From: Lactobacillus sp. PV034
GTDB taxonomy: Bacteria; Bacillota; Bacilli; Lactobacillales; Lactobacillaceae
NCBI RefSeq assembly: GCF_014522305.1
Contig: NZ_CP041982.1
Location: 5,001-69,000 of the forward strand
Direction: 5' to 3'
DNA: 64,000 nt
Made by a program: the position numbers and the translations under genes. The notes below the pieces were generated by a model. That model was not told the origin of the DNA and ran no database searches. It was given only the letters and a program-made list of their open reading frames with translations. How positions within the stretch are numbered: position 1 is the stretch's first letter; every line of letters begins with the position of its first letter. Positions 15,093-53,439 of the stretch are shown here, piece after piece.

Positions 15093-15163
15093 AGTCGGTT
15101 CAGGTCCCAAAAGGATTCGTGAATATACGAAGATGCCTTGTAACCGAAATATATTTTAGGGGG
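15093..15163 (+). promoter_or_regulatory. S(MK) box (SAM-III) riboswitch of metK
   Basis: The metK leader contains the S(MK) box core: gtcggtt pairs with aaccga, aaaggattcg and gatgccttgtaaccgaaa segments lie in the expected order, and the ggggg Shine-Dalgarno follows at about 15158-15163. In the known class, SAM binding pairs the anti-SD with the SD and blocks ribosome entry. The only gene it can control here is metK, so SAM synthesis is limited by its product. Confidence 0.9.
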
Positions 15164-15168
15164 ACACC

Positions 15169-16374
15169 ATGGAAAAAGAAAAACATTTATTTACTTCGGA
15201 ATCCGTTTCTGAAGGACATCCAGATAAAGTTGCTGATCAAATTTCTGATGCAATTTTAGATGCAATTTTAGAAAAAGATCCTAACGGAAGAGTAGCATGT
15301 GAAACTACTGTAACTACAGGATTAGTTTTAGTAGTAGGAGAAATTACTACTAATGCATATGTAGATATTCAAAATGTAGTTAGAAAGACTATACTTGAAA
15401 TTGGATATGATAAGCCAGAGTTAGGGTTTGATGGTAATAATTGTGCTATTTTAGTGGATATTGATGAACAATCTGCTGATATTGCTGGTGGTGTGGATAA
15501 TTCATTAGAAGTTAGAGATAGTGCTCGCGATACTGATGAATTAGACCAAATTGGAGCTGGAGATCAAGGATTGATGTTCGGGTTTGCAATTAACGAAACA
15601 CCTGAGTTAATGCCCCTTCCTATTTCACTTTCCCATAAATTAATGAAAAAAGTTGCTGATTTAAGAAAGAATGGTACTTTACCTTGGCTTAGACCGGATG
15701 CTAAAGCCCAAGTTACTGTTGAGTACGATGATGATGGTAAACCTAAGAGAATTGATACTGTTGTTATCTCAACACAAACCGACGAAACTGTAACTTTAGA
15801 TGAAATTAAAAGCAGTATGATCAATCAGGTAATTAAAGAAGTTATTCCTGATAAGTATTTAGATGAAAATACTAAATATTTGATAAATCCTTCTGGTCGT
15901 TTTGTTATTGGTGGGCCAAAGGGAGATTCTGGCTTAACTGGTCGTAAAATTATTGTTGATACATACGGTGGTTATGCTCGTCATGGTGGAGGAGCATTTT
16001 CAGGTAAAGATTTAACTAAAGTAGACCGTAGTGCAAGTTATGCAGCACGATATGTAGCGAAGAATATTGTTGCTGCAGGTTTAGCTGATCGTTGTGAAAT
16101 TCAATTAGCTTATGCAATTGGGGTTGCGCACCCAGTATCTATTATGATTGATACTGCTGGAACTGGAAAAGTTGATGATGACTTATTGGTTGAAGCTGTT
16201 CGCCATACTTTTGATTTAAGACCAGCTGGTATTATTAAGATGTTAGACTTGCGTCGTCCAATTTATCGTCAAACCGCTGCATATGGACATTTTGGTCGTA
16301 CAGATGTTGATTTGCCTTGGGAACACACTGATAAGGTAAATGATCTTAAAAAATATGTAGAAGAACATAAATAA
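15169..16374 (+). CDS. metK: S-adenosylmethionine synthase
   Basis: A 401-residue enzyme making S-adenosylmethionine from methionine and ATP in the cytosol. Visible family motifs are [13 protein letters not shown] at residues 7-19 (start of the ATP/Mg site), [10 protein letters not shown] near 126-135, and GGGAFSGKD near 275-283 (P-loop-like phosphate site). Length is normal. The ATG follows the ggggg of the S(MK) box by five bases, so the start and the regulation agree. Single-gene unit between terminators. Confidence 0.98.
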
Positions 16375-49960: not shown

Positions 49961-50746
49961 TTATTTTGTAATATCGGCACCAAAGTATTTCTTAGAAAGT
50001 TTGGCAACTGTGCCATCTTTGAGTAATTCTTTCATGGCCTTATCGTAAGAATGACGAAGGGCATTGTCTTTTTTATTGAAGAGGGCAGAGATATCATCTG
50101 GCTTAACATCACTAGAAATATCAATTGCTTTTAAGCCTTTTGTATTGTTCTTTTTACGGTAAGTGTACCAGGCACCACTAGAGTTAACTTCTCCATCCAC
50201 GCGATGATCTTTTACCATACCGACCGCAGTCGCAAAGTCACCGTTTGGTACTACAGTGGCACCGTATTTCTTAGCGATGGCTGCATTTTCAGTACCAATT
50301 CCAGCTACAATTTTTTTACCCTTTACTTCTTTAATATTCTTAATTTTACTGTCACTTGGAACAATTAAAATTGAACGAGATTTGATGTAAGGAATAGAGT
50401 AATTATAGTGTTTGGCCCGTTCTGGAGTTGGCGTCATGTCATTCATAATTACGTCAAATTTTCCAGTACCTAGACCTGCTACTAATGAATCCCATTTAGT
50501 TGGGACAAATTTTGCTTTAAGACCCATCTTTTTAGCTACAGCCTTGCCAAGGTCAACTTCAAAGCCAGTTAACTTGCCATCTTTACGATAAGAATAAGGA
50601 GCATAAGTTCCTTCGAGACCAATCACTAGCGTCTTTTTACTTTCGTTTTTTTGTGAAGCGCGACTAGAAGCTTGCCAAGTATAAATTCCTGCCCCAGCAA
50701 TGATAACAGCTAAAACAACCAGTAAAATTTTCTTCCATGATTTCAT
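49961..50746 (-). CDS. Amino-acid ABC transporter substrate-binding protein, probably for cystine
   Basis: 261 residues. A hydrophobic N-terminal segment (residues 5-24) has no lipobox Cys, so it is likely membrane-anchored by an uncleaved helix instead of by lipid. The SBP_bac_3 fold follows, with ligand-site motifs VIGLEGTYAPYSY near 41-53, GFEVDLGKAVAKKMG near 63-77 and DVIMNDMTPTPER near 101-113. Third gene of a permease-ATPase-binding protein operon read on the minus strand. Cystine/cysteine is inferred from the Cys-rich leader peptide and the TcyA-like sequence. Confidence 0.85.
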   Translation of the reverse strand: MKSWKKILLVVLAVIIAGAGIYTWQASSRASQKNESKKTLVIGLEGTYAPYSYRKDGKLTGFEVDLGKAVAKKMGLKAKFVPTKWDSLVAGLGTGKFDVIMNDMTPTPERAKHYNYSIPYIKSRSILIVPSDSKIKNIKEVKGKKIVAGIGTENAAIAKKYGATVVPNGDFATAVGMVKDHRVDGEVNSSGAWYTYRKKNNTKGLKAIDISSDVKPDDISALFNKKDNALRHSYDKAMKELLKDGTVAKLSKKYFGADITK

Positions 50747-50763
50747 AATTAATAATCCTCCAT

Positions 50764-51510
50764 TTATAAATCTTTCATTGTCATTGAGTTAATAAATTTT
50801 TTAATTCTTTGATTAGGGTTATTTGCATCGAAAAATTCTGCAGGGGAACCATCGTACAAAATATTTCCATTTTCAACAAAGATAATCTTGTCTGCTATCT
50901 TTTGTGCAAAAAGCATATTGTGGGTCACGATTACCATTGATTGATTTTCTTTTGCTAGTCCTAAAAGAACTTTCAAAACACTTAATTCTAATTCAGGGTC
51001 AAGGGCAGAAGTGGGTTCATCTAAGAGAATATATTCAGGTGCCATGGCTAAGGCGCGGGCAATAGCAACTCTTTGAGCTTGGCCACCTGATAGGGCGCTA
51101 GGATAAGAATTTTCATATTCAGCTAGGCCTACTTTAGCTAATAATTGTCTAGCTGTAGTTTGCGCTTGTTTTTTTGAATGTTTTAAAACTTGGGTTGGTC
51201 CTTCGATGACGTTTCCAATAACAGTTTTAGTTGGAAAAAGATTATAATCTTGAAAAACCATGCCAGTTTTTTTACGAAGAATAGTTTTTTCTTTAGTAGT
51301 AATTTTTTTACTAAAATCTAAATGTTCCTCATCAAACTCATATTCACCACTGTCAGGAGTTACCAACAAATTTAGAGTACGTAAGAGTGTAGATTTTCCT
51401 GAACCTGATGGACCTACTAAAACGGTAGTCTTCCCAATGGGAAAATCTAAGCTAATATTCTTAAGGACTTGTTTATCACCAAAGCTTTTGTTAATATTTG
51501 TCAATTTCAT
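50764..51510 (-). CDS. Amino-acid ABC transporter ATP-binding protein
   Basis: 248 residues with Walker A GPSGSGKST near 33-41, Q-loop FQDYNLF near 92, signature LSGGQAQR near 144-151 and Walker B YILLDEPTSALDPE near 162-175. GlnQ/TcyC-type PAAT family. Lies between the permease (11-base gap) and the binding protein (17-base gap). It hydrolyses ATP to drive amino-acid uptake. Confidence 0.95.
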   Translation of the reverse strand: MKLTNINKSFGDKQVLKNISLDFPIGKTTVLVGPSGSGKSTLLRTLNLLVTPDSGEYEFDEEHLDFSKKITTKEKTILRKKTGMVFQDYNLFPTKTVIGNVIEGPTQVLKHSKKQAQTTARQLLAKVGLAEYENSYPSALSGGQAQRVAIARALAMAPEYILLDEPTSALDPELELSVLKVLLGLAKENQSMVIVTHNMLFAQKIADKIIFVENGNILYDGSPAEFFDANNPNQRIKKFINSMTMKDL

Positions 51511-51521
51511 TGTCTCACCTC

Positions 51522-52223
51522 CTAATTTTGTTCGGTATTCACATGCCGTCCAGTGACTTGCTCTAAATATTTTTGTAACAAAGTTAAAACACTAGTAAAG
51601 GCTGCATAAATTAAGGCAACTAAGCTGTACATCAGTAAGGGTTGATAATTTTCTGCTGCTAATTGTTGACTAACTGCGAACATTTCCATGATTGTAATTG
51701 AGGCAGCTAGCGAAGTATCTTTTACTAAACTGATAAAACTGTTTGAAAGGGGCGGCAGCGCAACTCTAAAAGCTTGCGGTAAGATAATGCGCCAAAGTGT
51801 TCGTAATTTGGACATTCCCATGGACATACCCGCTTCCCATTGGCCTTGTGGTACTGAGCTAATGGCAGCACGGATAGTTTCTGAAGCATAAGCCCCAGTA
51901 TTAAGTGAAAAGGTAATCACACCTGCCGTAAAAGGTTCTAGTTTAATACCATTAGGGAATATCCCTTTAATTTTGAGGTAAGGTAAACCAAAGAACACAA
52001 TAAACAATTGCACTAAAAGTGGAGTAGCCCGAAAGAGCCAAACATAAAAACCAAAGATCCATTTAATAATTAAAAAGAATCCACCCTTTTTTGAAAGGCG
52101 TACTAAGGCTGTGATTAAAGCAAGTATCAGGCCAAAGAAAAATGAAATTATGGCTAAGGGGATGGTGTATTTAAAGCCAGCCGCTAGCATCTGCGGTACA
52201 GAGCCCTCAATTATTTTCCACAT
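51522..52223 (-). CDS. Amino-acid ABC transporter permease, His/Glu/Gln/Arg type
   Basis: 233 residues, about five membrane helices, with the inner-membrane-component signature EAGMSMGMSKLRTLWRIILP near residues 131-150, where the ATPase docks. PAAT family permease. First gene of the operon, behind the 29-codon Cys leader ORF and terminator at 52252-52298. RBS aaaggaga sits nine bases before the ATG on the minus strand. Confidence 0.94.
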   Translation of the reverse strand: MWKIIEGSVPQMLAAGFKYTIPLAIISFFFGLILALITALVRLSKKGGFFLIIKWIFGFYVWLFRATPLLVQLFIVFFGLPYLKIKGIFPNGIKLEPFTAGVITFSLNTGAYASETIRAAISSVPQGQWEAGMSMGMSKLRTLWRIILPQAFRVALPPLSNSFISLVKDTSLAASITIMEMFAVSQQLAAENYQPLLMYSLVALIYAAFTSVLTLLQKYLEQVTGRHVNTEQN

Positions 52224-52251
52224 ATCTTAAAATTTCTCCTTTATTTCAAAA

Positions 52252-52298
52252 TGGGTACAAAAAAGGCGCAAATTCAAAAACGAATTTGCGCCTTATGC
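52252..52298 (-). terminator. Attenuator terminator before the cystine-type permease gene
   Basis: On the minus strand aaggcgcaaattc (52294-52282) pairs perfectly with gaatttgcgcctt (52275-52263), followed by six T. It lies after the leader ORF and 29 bases before the permease ATG. Its 5' arm, extended as gcataaggcgc (52298-52288), is complementary to gcgtcttatgc inside the leader ORF. Confidence 0.9.
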
Positions 52299-52332
52299 AT
52301 TGTTATCCCGTAATTTTGTTAGTCAAAACTCA

Positions 52333-52422
52333 TTATTTATGAGCATGCCAAAACGTGGGTCGCATAAGACGCGATCCACAGCAACATAAAGTAAAGTTAA
52401 TGTTGTTTTGGCTGTTAAACAT
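52333..52422 (-). CDS. Cys-rich leader peptide of the cystine-type transporter operon
   Basis: A 29-residue ORF with a good ribosome-binding site (ttaggag) ten bases before the ATG. Residues 13-15 are Cys-Cys-Cys (codons tgt tgc tgt, 52386-52378), and the C-terminus is rich in Arg/His/Trp (GSRLMRPTFWHAHK). It lies between a promoter and an attenuator terminator upstream of an amino-acid ABC operon. Known attenuation leaders carry runs of the regulating amino acid's codons, so this should sense charged tRNA-Cys. Function is inferred; it is too short for ordinary gene finding. Confidence 0.8.
   Translation of the reverse strand: MFNSQNNINFTLCCCGSRLMRPTFWHAHK
52355..52379 (-). promoter_or_regulatory. 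Leader hairpin masking the antiterminator segment
   Basis: On the minus strand gtgg-a-tcgc (52379-52371) pairs with gcga-c-ccac (52363-52355), eight pairs with one A/C mismatch and loop gtcttat. It begins in the third Cys codon. An outer stem gccaaaac (52412-52405) with gttttggc (52354-52347) and a small inner stem aacat/atgtt complete a three-way structure. It hides gcgtcttatgc (52372-52362), which otherwise can pair with the terminator 5' arm. Confidence 0.65.
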
Positions 52423-52454
52423 AATTTATTTCTCCTAACTTAAAGTATGTGTTT

Positions 52455-52483
52455 AGACTAACTTATAAAAAATAAGTTGTCAA
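52455..52483 (-). promoter_or_regulatory. Promoter of the cystine-type transporter leader, with internal palindrome
   Basis: Minus strand: TTGACA (52483-52478), 17-base spacer, TAGTCT (52460-52455). The spacer and its edges contain the perfect inverted repeat aacttat-N5-ataagtt, well placed for a repressor or activator. The LysR-type gene lies just upstream and is one candidate binder. Confidence 0.7.
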
Positions 52484-52512
52484 TAAAAAATTAAAGGAGA
52501 TTAAGAATAAAG

Positions 52513-53439
52513 TTAATGGATTGTTTGTTCTAATTTTGTTTGTTGAAAAATATTTACTAAGTCTTTAATTGCTTTAGAGTGTTGTTTCCCCTGTTTAAGA
52601 GCAATGAAATATTTGATCATTAAGAGCTCACGCTTAATTGGCAGCAAATTAATTGGCAGGTGCTGTAATCTCTTCAAGATACTGGCCGAAGAAATAGTTA
52701 GCCCAACTCCTTTAACAACTAAGTTGGCTACCGTAATCACACTATTGCTTTCCATAACTATTTTGGGCTTTACATGATATTTTTGAAATAAGCCGTTAAG
52801 TTGGTGGCGAACAGCAGATTCAGGCTGACTTAGGACTAAAGGTTGCTGCAAGAGCTCTTTGATTTCTAATTCATCATCTTGCAAGATAAATTTGTTTGGC
52901 TGGAAATATTGTGAACTAGCTGGAATTATAATGTAGTATTGCTCATCCCCATTAGTGTAGACATCGAAGCCACCACTAATTGCCTCCGGTGTTTGACCAA
53001 TATAACAGTCTATCTCTTCGTTGGATAAGCGGCGTTCGGTTTTGCGAGGAAAAGCTTCAAAGAGTTGAATCTCTGCATTGGGATGCAGTTTTAAGAAAGT
53101 AGGTAAGATTTTAGGTAATAAGTAAGAACCTAAGCTTTCTAAGATCCCAATTCGGATTACTTCTTTATCTGGATGGGAGAATTGGGCAAGTTTTCTTTCT
53201 AATTGTTGATCATTATAAGAAACATTTTCTAGGTATTTGTAATAGATCAGACCTGCTTCAGTTAAGGTAAAAGGTTTACTGTCACGATTAATAATCTTGG
53301 CGCCAACTTTTTGTTCGATCCGCTTAATTAATTGCGTTAAATAAGGTTGTGAAATATATAACTGTTTAGCCGCCTTAGTAAAATTACTTTCTTTTAAAAG
53401 CATATCAAGATCATGTAATAATTCTTCTGCATCGTTCAT
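52513..53439 (-). CDS. LysR-family transcriptional regulator
   Basis: 308 residues. A winged HTH covers residues 1-60 (FTKAAKQLYISQPYLTQLIKRIEQKVGAKI, the typical LysR pattern), followed by a two-lobe co-inducer domain. It is divergent from the FMN/FAD reductase gene and directly upstream of the cystine-type transporter leader on the same strand, so either could be its target. Several LysR proteins of lactic acid bacteria control sulfur amino acid uptake, but nothing here proves the ligand. RBS gaggtgat before the ATG. Confidence 0.92.
   Translation of the reverse strand: MNDAEELLHDLDMLLKESNFTKAAKQLYISQPYLTQLIKRIEQKVGAKIINRDSKPFTLTEAGLIYYKYLENVSYNDQQLERKLAQFSHPDKEVIRIGILESLGSYLLPKILPTFLKLHPNAEIQLFEAFPRKTERRLSNEEIDCYIGQTPEAISGGFDVYTNGDEQYYIIIPASSQYFQPNKFILQDDELEIKELLQQPLVLSQPESAVRHQLNGLFQKYHVKPKIVMESNSVITVANLVVKGVGLTISSASILKRLQHLPINLLPIKRELLMIKYFIALKQGKQHSKAIKDLVNIFQQTKLEQTIH

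Follow-up and report, generated by a model that had tools for sequence, protein, structure and literature searches.

A three-cysteine leader before a cystine-type transporter operon in Lactobacillus sp. PV034: a probable transcription attenuator with relatives elsewhere in Lactobacillaceae

The leader and the transporter operon

The window analysed here is a stretch of 64,000 nucleotides from Lactobacillus sp. PV034 (NZ_CP041982.1, positions 5,001 to 69,000). Its minus strand carries genes for an ABC transporter in the order permease, ATPase, substrate-binding protein (SBP). The permease, which is of the cystine type (51522-52223, ATG at 52223), scores best with the NCBIfam cystine permease model PRK15100 (222.4 bits, cut-off 300), the ATPase (50764-51510) with TcyN (270.4 bits, cut-off 406), and the SBP (49961-50746) with the cystine SBP model PRK11260 (156.7 bits, cut-off 312). 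Cystine models are at the top for all three subunits, each with a score below the cut-off at which a protein would count as an equivalog of the L-cystine (Tcy-type) transporter. The best solved relative of the SBP is 2yln, an entry named only amino-acid binding protein; we take it to be the gonococcal cystine receptor. A preliminary description of this DNA had proposed cystine or cysteine as the substrate. The nearest NCBIfam models are indeed cystine models, but all scores stay below cut-off and three orthologous permeases lie behind a T-box read as a Met T-box (see below); judged by these similarities, cystine or cysteine is the likely substrate.

Upstream of the permease gene, the same strand holds an ORF of 29 codons, MFNSQNNINFTLCCCGSRLMRPTFWHAHK, with its ATG at 52422 and a stop codon that ends at 52333. 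Codons 13-15 (52386-52378) are the Cys codons TGT TGC TGT, the proposed stall site. A ribosome-binding site, TAGGAG (52437-52432), precedes the ATG, and a predicted promoter (52483-52455) consists of a −35 element TTGACA (52483-52478), a 17-nt spacer and a −10 element TAGTCT (52460-52455). The sequence bears out the preliminary description as to the coordinates of the ORF, its Cys codons, its ribosome site and its position between a TTGACA promoter and a terminator before the permease gene. A DNA search found one copy of the leader in its own genome.

A dyad within the promoter spacer, AACTTAT-N5-ATAAGTT (52478-52460), is a possible operator. Further upstream, a LysR-type gene (52513-53439, minus strand) ends before the promoter. 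When the window and the leader were searched with Rfam 15, no family reached its gathering score on the leader (best relaxed match 26.4 versus 45 bits), and the T-box covariance model matched neither the window nor, at a relaxed threshold, positions 52200-52520. Elsewhere in the window, a match to the SAM-III (SMK box) riboswitch on the plus strand (15093-15171, 64.7 bits) makes a second sulfur-related RNA switch.

Two mutually exclusive pairings in the leader RNA

The minimum free energy (MFE) of the leader RNA is −59 kcal/mol (z −6.07), and none of 200 shuffled sequences was as stable. Hairpin H, the putative anti-antiterminator (52379-52355), was found by MFE folding and covariation; it pairs 52379-52371 with 52363-52355 and begins at the third Cys codon. 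The putative antiterminator arm A, GCGUCUUAUGC (52372-52362), lies inside both H and the ORF. Its partner T5, GCAUAAGGCGC (52298-52288), overlaps the 5' arm of a predicted intrinsic terminator (52294-52259), which comprises a hairpin of −20.1 kcal/mol (52294-52263) and a T-run to 52259. Arms A and T5 can form 11 pairs, including one G-U. H and A:T5 are mutually exclusive, and A:T5 also excludes the terminator.

The assignment of A and T5 rests on their covariation and on a test of cognate duplexes. An alignment, A3, of 72 rows (70 distinct, with three weak and probably spurious rows kept) was fitted to a covariance model that includes the leader hairpin and the terminator but not A:T5. In A3, A:T5 has standard pairs in 91.6% of cells and changes on both sides at 10 of its 11 pairs; none of 500 shuffles reached any of five measures, a comparison in which related sequences may exceed shuffles without any structure, and slid versions of the helix pair in 25-57%. 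The corresponding values for H are 88.6% paired, changes on both sides at eight of nine pairs, 0 of 500 shuffles and 27-62% for slid versions, and here the covariation leans towards the model, since the A3 model contains the leader hairpin. The slid controls, together with the double changes, speak against an artefact of kinship.

The mean energy of the A:T5 duplex was −20.7 kcal/mol with cognate arms versus −14.4 kcal/mol when the arms came from other genera and −10.1 kcal/mol when they were shuffled (62 pairs, one with an empty arm that was scored as zero). When genera were permuted, the observed cognate mean was reached in none of 20000 trials. The arrangement thus has what characterizes an attenuator, namely an antiterminator and a terminator that exclude each other and an anti-antiterminator beside the regulatory codons, with the exception of L101 and L142, which lacked the A:T5 match in the duplex test despite an intact leader. 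In these two loci, the hairpin after the leader does not match arm A, and CysK begins about 100 nt further downstream than usual.

With a ribosome placed at the first Cys codon, the RNA on its 3' side favoured A:T5 in all 61 members folded. In free RNA that ends just past T5, equilibrium folding gave A:T5 over H in 59 of 61 members when the RNA began 12 nt upstream of the hairpin; when it began 10, 20 or 28 nt upstream of the ATG, the counts were 50, 41 and 43 of 61, respectively. Once the terminator was complete, H and the terminator coexisted in 59 of 61. The leader of the window kept H at every transcript length folded when 20 nt before the ATG were included; at the length just past T5, A:T5 won with 10 nt upstream and H with 20 or 28 nt. 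Equilibrium folding alone fails to reproduce the switch in most of the 61 members, and because it prefers A:T5 in them, we infer that their switch would have to be kinetic, with H made well before T5.

A family of Cys leaders and the genes behind it

A covariance model built from eight leaders, R1, was run against 397 Lactobacillaceae genomes and matched in 67 of them at E ≤ 0.01. Its places, together with the window, L024, L028 and five loci that carry a terminator motif described below, amount to 86. At 74 of these a short leader ORF with an ATG and its own Shine-Dalgarno (SD) site stands before the operon, as in ribosome-mediated attenuators, and 66 of the 74 have the exact CCC; the other 12 places have none. 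The recurrence of an ORF with ATG, SD and Cys run, and the covariation of two exclusive helices, confirm that the ORF and its Cys run are not there by chance. In 71 of the 74, TTGAC[AT] with a loosely defined −10 element is found no more than 95 nt from the leader ATG. In a comparison by eye of 16 leaders, several had promoter dyads similar to that of the window and others had none. The dyads of the family show changes on both sides in L024 and are present, again by eye, also at loci without a LysR gene; they hint at a repressor.

A second model, R2, was built from 58 leaders and used at E ≤ 5e-4. It matched in 99 of the 397 genomes and 15 of 40 sampled genera and gave 43 new places, of which 40 were fetched, and 119 model-found places were classified overall. 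The run of regulatory codons expected of an attenuator is present at 100 of these (86 genomes), with three Cys in the triplet in 78 and two in 22. The number of codons ahead of the run varies from 9 to 15, and ATG, SD and Cys codons stand at a fixed place before H. In L079 a stop codon directly after CCC ends the leader at codon 14, either as a natural variant or through a sequencing error.

The first gene within 450 nt of the leader encodes CysK in 58 cases, a cystathionine lyase or synthase in 29, a MetA-like protein in three and the permease in seven (97 of 100), as counted over the listed clusters with representatives identified for each class. Downstream genes that serve the same amino acid, another mark of an attenuator, are thus found in 97 of 100, the transporter being counted by its likely substrate. 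Because the model was built from leader RNA only, the gene association is largely independent support. In the remaining three, the sulfur gene is further off (L077), the sequence ends 64 nt downstream (L120) or another ORF follows (L197). At L077 a 321-aa ORF on the opposite strand, perhaps an insertion, separates the leader from the lyase gene. L197 has a leader with four Cys (VNIQTVNAKLCCCCSSRLKRCSAC) before an ORF read as an oligopeptide-binding lipoprotein, and peptide uptake may therefore be part of the regulon. At L182, L106 and L113 the leader stands before a MetA-like gene that is followed by CysK; in L. paracasei, according to the accessible text of PMC6004538, metA codes for a serine acetyltransferase. 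Among the 19 places without a classified leader, 15 also have no CysK, lyase, MetA-like or permease gene (L203, one of these, breaks off after 124 nt), and the other four are L196 and three CCC leaders with a weaker ribosome site (L082, L125, L131).

Across 345 genomes of the order, R2 had matches at E ≤ 1.1e-9 in no family but Lactobacillaceae (best outside 1.1e-4); across 250 genomes of the class, only the own genome fell below 4e-4, with the best match outside the family at 4.1e-4. Nine loci outside the family (L157-L160, L164-L166, L168, L169) have no ATG-started Cys leader with a ribosome site; L166 has one CC ORF, which lacks a ribosome site. Distant relatives are possible, since searches over more than 40 genomes use stricter filters and lose weak matches. 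Plasmids searched at near identity with one CysK gene gave no match.

The preliminary description had proposed an alignment of the DNA upstream of orthologous permease genes in the genus. That comparison would be ill suited, as the permease is matched at E ≤ 1e-60 in only 7 of 75 genus genomes, including its own, and the most useful relatives lie in other genera. Across 25 permease loci, the family leader stands directly before the permease in seven (L013, L014, L024, L028, L030, L031, L034), another Cys leader in two (L032, L037) and a T-box in three (L029, L035, L036). In 10 further loci (L015-L023, L027) the permease lies behind a PLP-enzyme gene, and in several of these the family leader precedes that gene (e.g. 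L069, L075, L076, L079). The last three (L025, L026, L033) have neither a Cys leader, a T-box match nor a recognisable upstream lyase gene; a long untranslated region before their permease gene possibly holds another regulator. Beyond the 25, L009 has a Cys/Met leader, and in L011 and L012 the permease follows an SBP gene and has no leader.

The specifier of the T-boxes in L029, L035 and L036 was read in Rfam alignments as AUG (Met); the T-box of L029 reaches 73.5 bits, where the gathering score is 93. A Met T-box also precedes yckJK-metC of L. paracasei, whose transporter is of the orthologous type, in conflict with its cystine-type sequence (PMC6004538, from the text accessible). The leader ORFs of L009, L032 and L037 (MCACGMMCGMCFAM, ECLCAMRP and MMMCQPCCQMMCNMVLC) are rich in Cys or in Cys and Met and have their own terminators before the same transporter. 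L032 has a clear candidate antiterminator (−16.4 kcal/mol); those of L009 and L037 are weaker.

For cysK2-ctl1-cysE2 of L. paracasei FAM18149, a terminator motif has been published and the regulation called 'yet to be discovered'; by RNA-seq, transcripts of the three genes in cysteine-deficient medium exceeded their level in methionine-deficient medium by 2.9-3.2 log2 units, and coverage of the 5'UTR was high (PMC6004538, as far as its text was available). A relaxed form of the motif occurs in five of the 397 genomes, all of a genus (g14) that is probably Lacticaseibacillus, and has exactly N16 in two of the five. All five loci have a leader with SD and CCC upstream (e.g. MNQSMFNAINCCCRTTRFWRCSAC), and, where in view, an open frame read as the start of CysK follows. 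The L. paracasei operon is thus tied to the leader family through its terminator motif, with the leader seen in the g14 genomes. It matches family members in gene content and in terminator motif; where the authors, in the accessible part of PMC6004538, saw a terminator only, a Cys leader and an antiterminator are added here. The text of the companion paper PMC6200037 contains neither 'leader' nor 'attenuat'.

Attenuation, its rivals and known systems

From these sequence comparisons, we think it very likely that the leader is a ribosome-mediated transcription attenuator that senses charged tRNA-Cys. Control by such a leader, as the preliminary description had suggested, is strongly supported by the conserved Cys run, by the covarying antiterminator and anti-antiterminator, and by the sulfur-amino-acid or permease gene after 97 of 100 leaders. 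Synthesis of the leader RNA would start at about 52450. With Cys-tRNA plentiful, the ribosome would pass codons 13-15, H would form behind it and hide A, and the terminator at 52294-52259 would halt transcription. With Cys-tRNA short, the ribosome would wait with codon 13 in its A site. Counted from the first base of the A-site codon, the 3' edge of a ribosome is about 12-13 nt away; it would here be near 52373, just before arm A. The waiting ribosome would cover the 5' arm of H and leave A free; A would then pair with T5, no terminator would form, and the transporter operon would be transcribed. The sequences themselves show the ORF, the Cys run, the two covarying pairings that exclude each other and the association with genes; translation, stalling, read-through, the start site, the footprint and the cystine substrate we infer. 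The scheme also fits the published rise of cysK2-ctl1-cysE2 transcripts in cysteine-deficient relative to methionine-deficient medium. On the other side stand the equilibrium folds of free RNA, the missing A:T5 match in L101 and L142, the early stop in L079 and the three permease loci with neither a leader, a T-box nor a recognised lyase gene.

The neighbourhood of the promoter invites the thought that a DNA-binding regulator is in control, with the spacer dyad or the upstream LysR protein as the switch and the leader contributing little. The dyad has counterparts, by eye, in several other leader promoters, and the LysR gene, which lies on the same strand just upstream, is shared with the L. 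rodentium locus L014 (G039) at 87% identity. Several of the leaders compared have no such dyad, however, and beyond these two genomes the LysR gene was found in no fetched locus; many loci hold too little upstream DNA for this count, but it is absent from L013, L024 and L028, each with 3 kb upstream. Since promoter control would also leave the covarying antiterminator unexplained, we consider it very unlikely as the main switch. A promoter layer could coexist with attenuation.

Riboswitches likewise have two exclusive, covarying RNA structures, and the RNA might be sensed by a ligand or a protein rather than by a translating ribosome, the ORF being incidental. A ligand-binding RNA has no need of the ATG, SD and Cys codons that recur at a fixed place before H, and, with no Rfam family on the leader, this reading is more improbable still. 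We give just as little weight to an activity of the Cys-rich peptide itself, as an arrest peptide or as a small metal- or redox-binding protein. After CCC many leaders have similar residues (GSxLMRxT), and one leader has a weak Pfam match to a metallothionein family (18 bits, cut-off 27); yet the peptide of the window leader has no match in NCBIfam or Pfam, and the residues after CCC, which differ in another group (RTTRFWRCSAC), have their codons within arm A and hairpin H. Because RNA pairing accounts for these residues, we set the arrest peptide aside.

Attenuation by the Cys leader has close parallels. The trp, his, thr and ilv operons have ribosome-mediated attenuators with amino-acid leader peptides, and the Cys leader shares with them a short ORF with a run of regulatory codons, three alternative hairpins that end in an intrinsic terminator, and downstream genes for the same amino acid; it differs from them in that the amino acid is cysteine and the hosts are Lactobacillaceae. 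A His leader in bacilli was put forward as the first case in Firmicutes of a regular leader peptide, such peptides having been unproven outside Proteobacteria and Actinobacteria before it (PMC2965389, in the passages accessible). The uORFC-8-2 motif before cysS in Rhodobacterales has tandem Cys codons at about 14-15 and a terminator, and attenuation has been proposed for it (PMC8632094, partial text). Compared by that description, both are uORFs with Cys codons and a terminator, whereas uORFC-8-2 belongs to Alphaproteobacteria, precedes a tRNA-synthetase gene and has two Cys codons; the window leader precedes a permease gene, and cysS is not among the listed gene classes. Mycobacterial polycysteine leaderless sORFs, a cysteine-responsive attenuator by the title of the report (Canestrari 2020), are likewise short and Cys-rich but leaderless, while the window leader has an SD (52437-52432) before its ATG and a predicted promoter about 30 nt further upstream. 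Control of an amino-acid ABC transporter by a Cys T-box, which likewise senses tRNA-Cys, is on record in the same bacterial family (PMC6004538, accessible text). The T-box binds the tRNA directly and without translation, and the window leader gave no T-box match. The preliminary description was not aware of an earlier account of this arrangement in Lactobacillus, and the literature searched, which was seen in part and mostly excludes subscription journals, gave no account of a lactobacillus Cys leader. The class of mechanism is classical and Cys leaders are known elsewhere; that the lactobacillus family is new, we hold with less confidence than the mechanism.

Amino-acid leader peptides are thought to be rare in Firmicutes, where T-boxes usually do that job (PMC2965389, same passages). 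The leader family offers a direct and testable explanation for the regulation of cysK2-ctl1-cysE2, a question that the accessible part of PMC6004538 raises, and it bears on a transporter whose substrate is disputed, with a Cys sensor in some lineages and a Met-read T-box in others. The parts of the leader are small and well bounded, which makes a reporter test simple. The wider picture, to which we give even weight for and against, is that of a cysteine regulon under attenuation throughout Lactobacillaceae: the Cys-leader family would control cystine uptake, Met-to-Cys conversion by cysK2-ctl1-cysE2 and perhaps, from L197, peptide uptake. On the same transporter it would have traded places with T-boxes for Met and with Cys or Cys/Met leaders unrelated to it (L009, L032, L037), so that the sensing of sulfur amino acids in these bacteria may be modular and have been reinvented several times.
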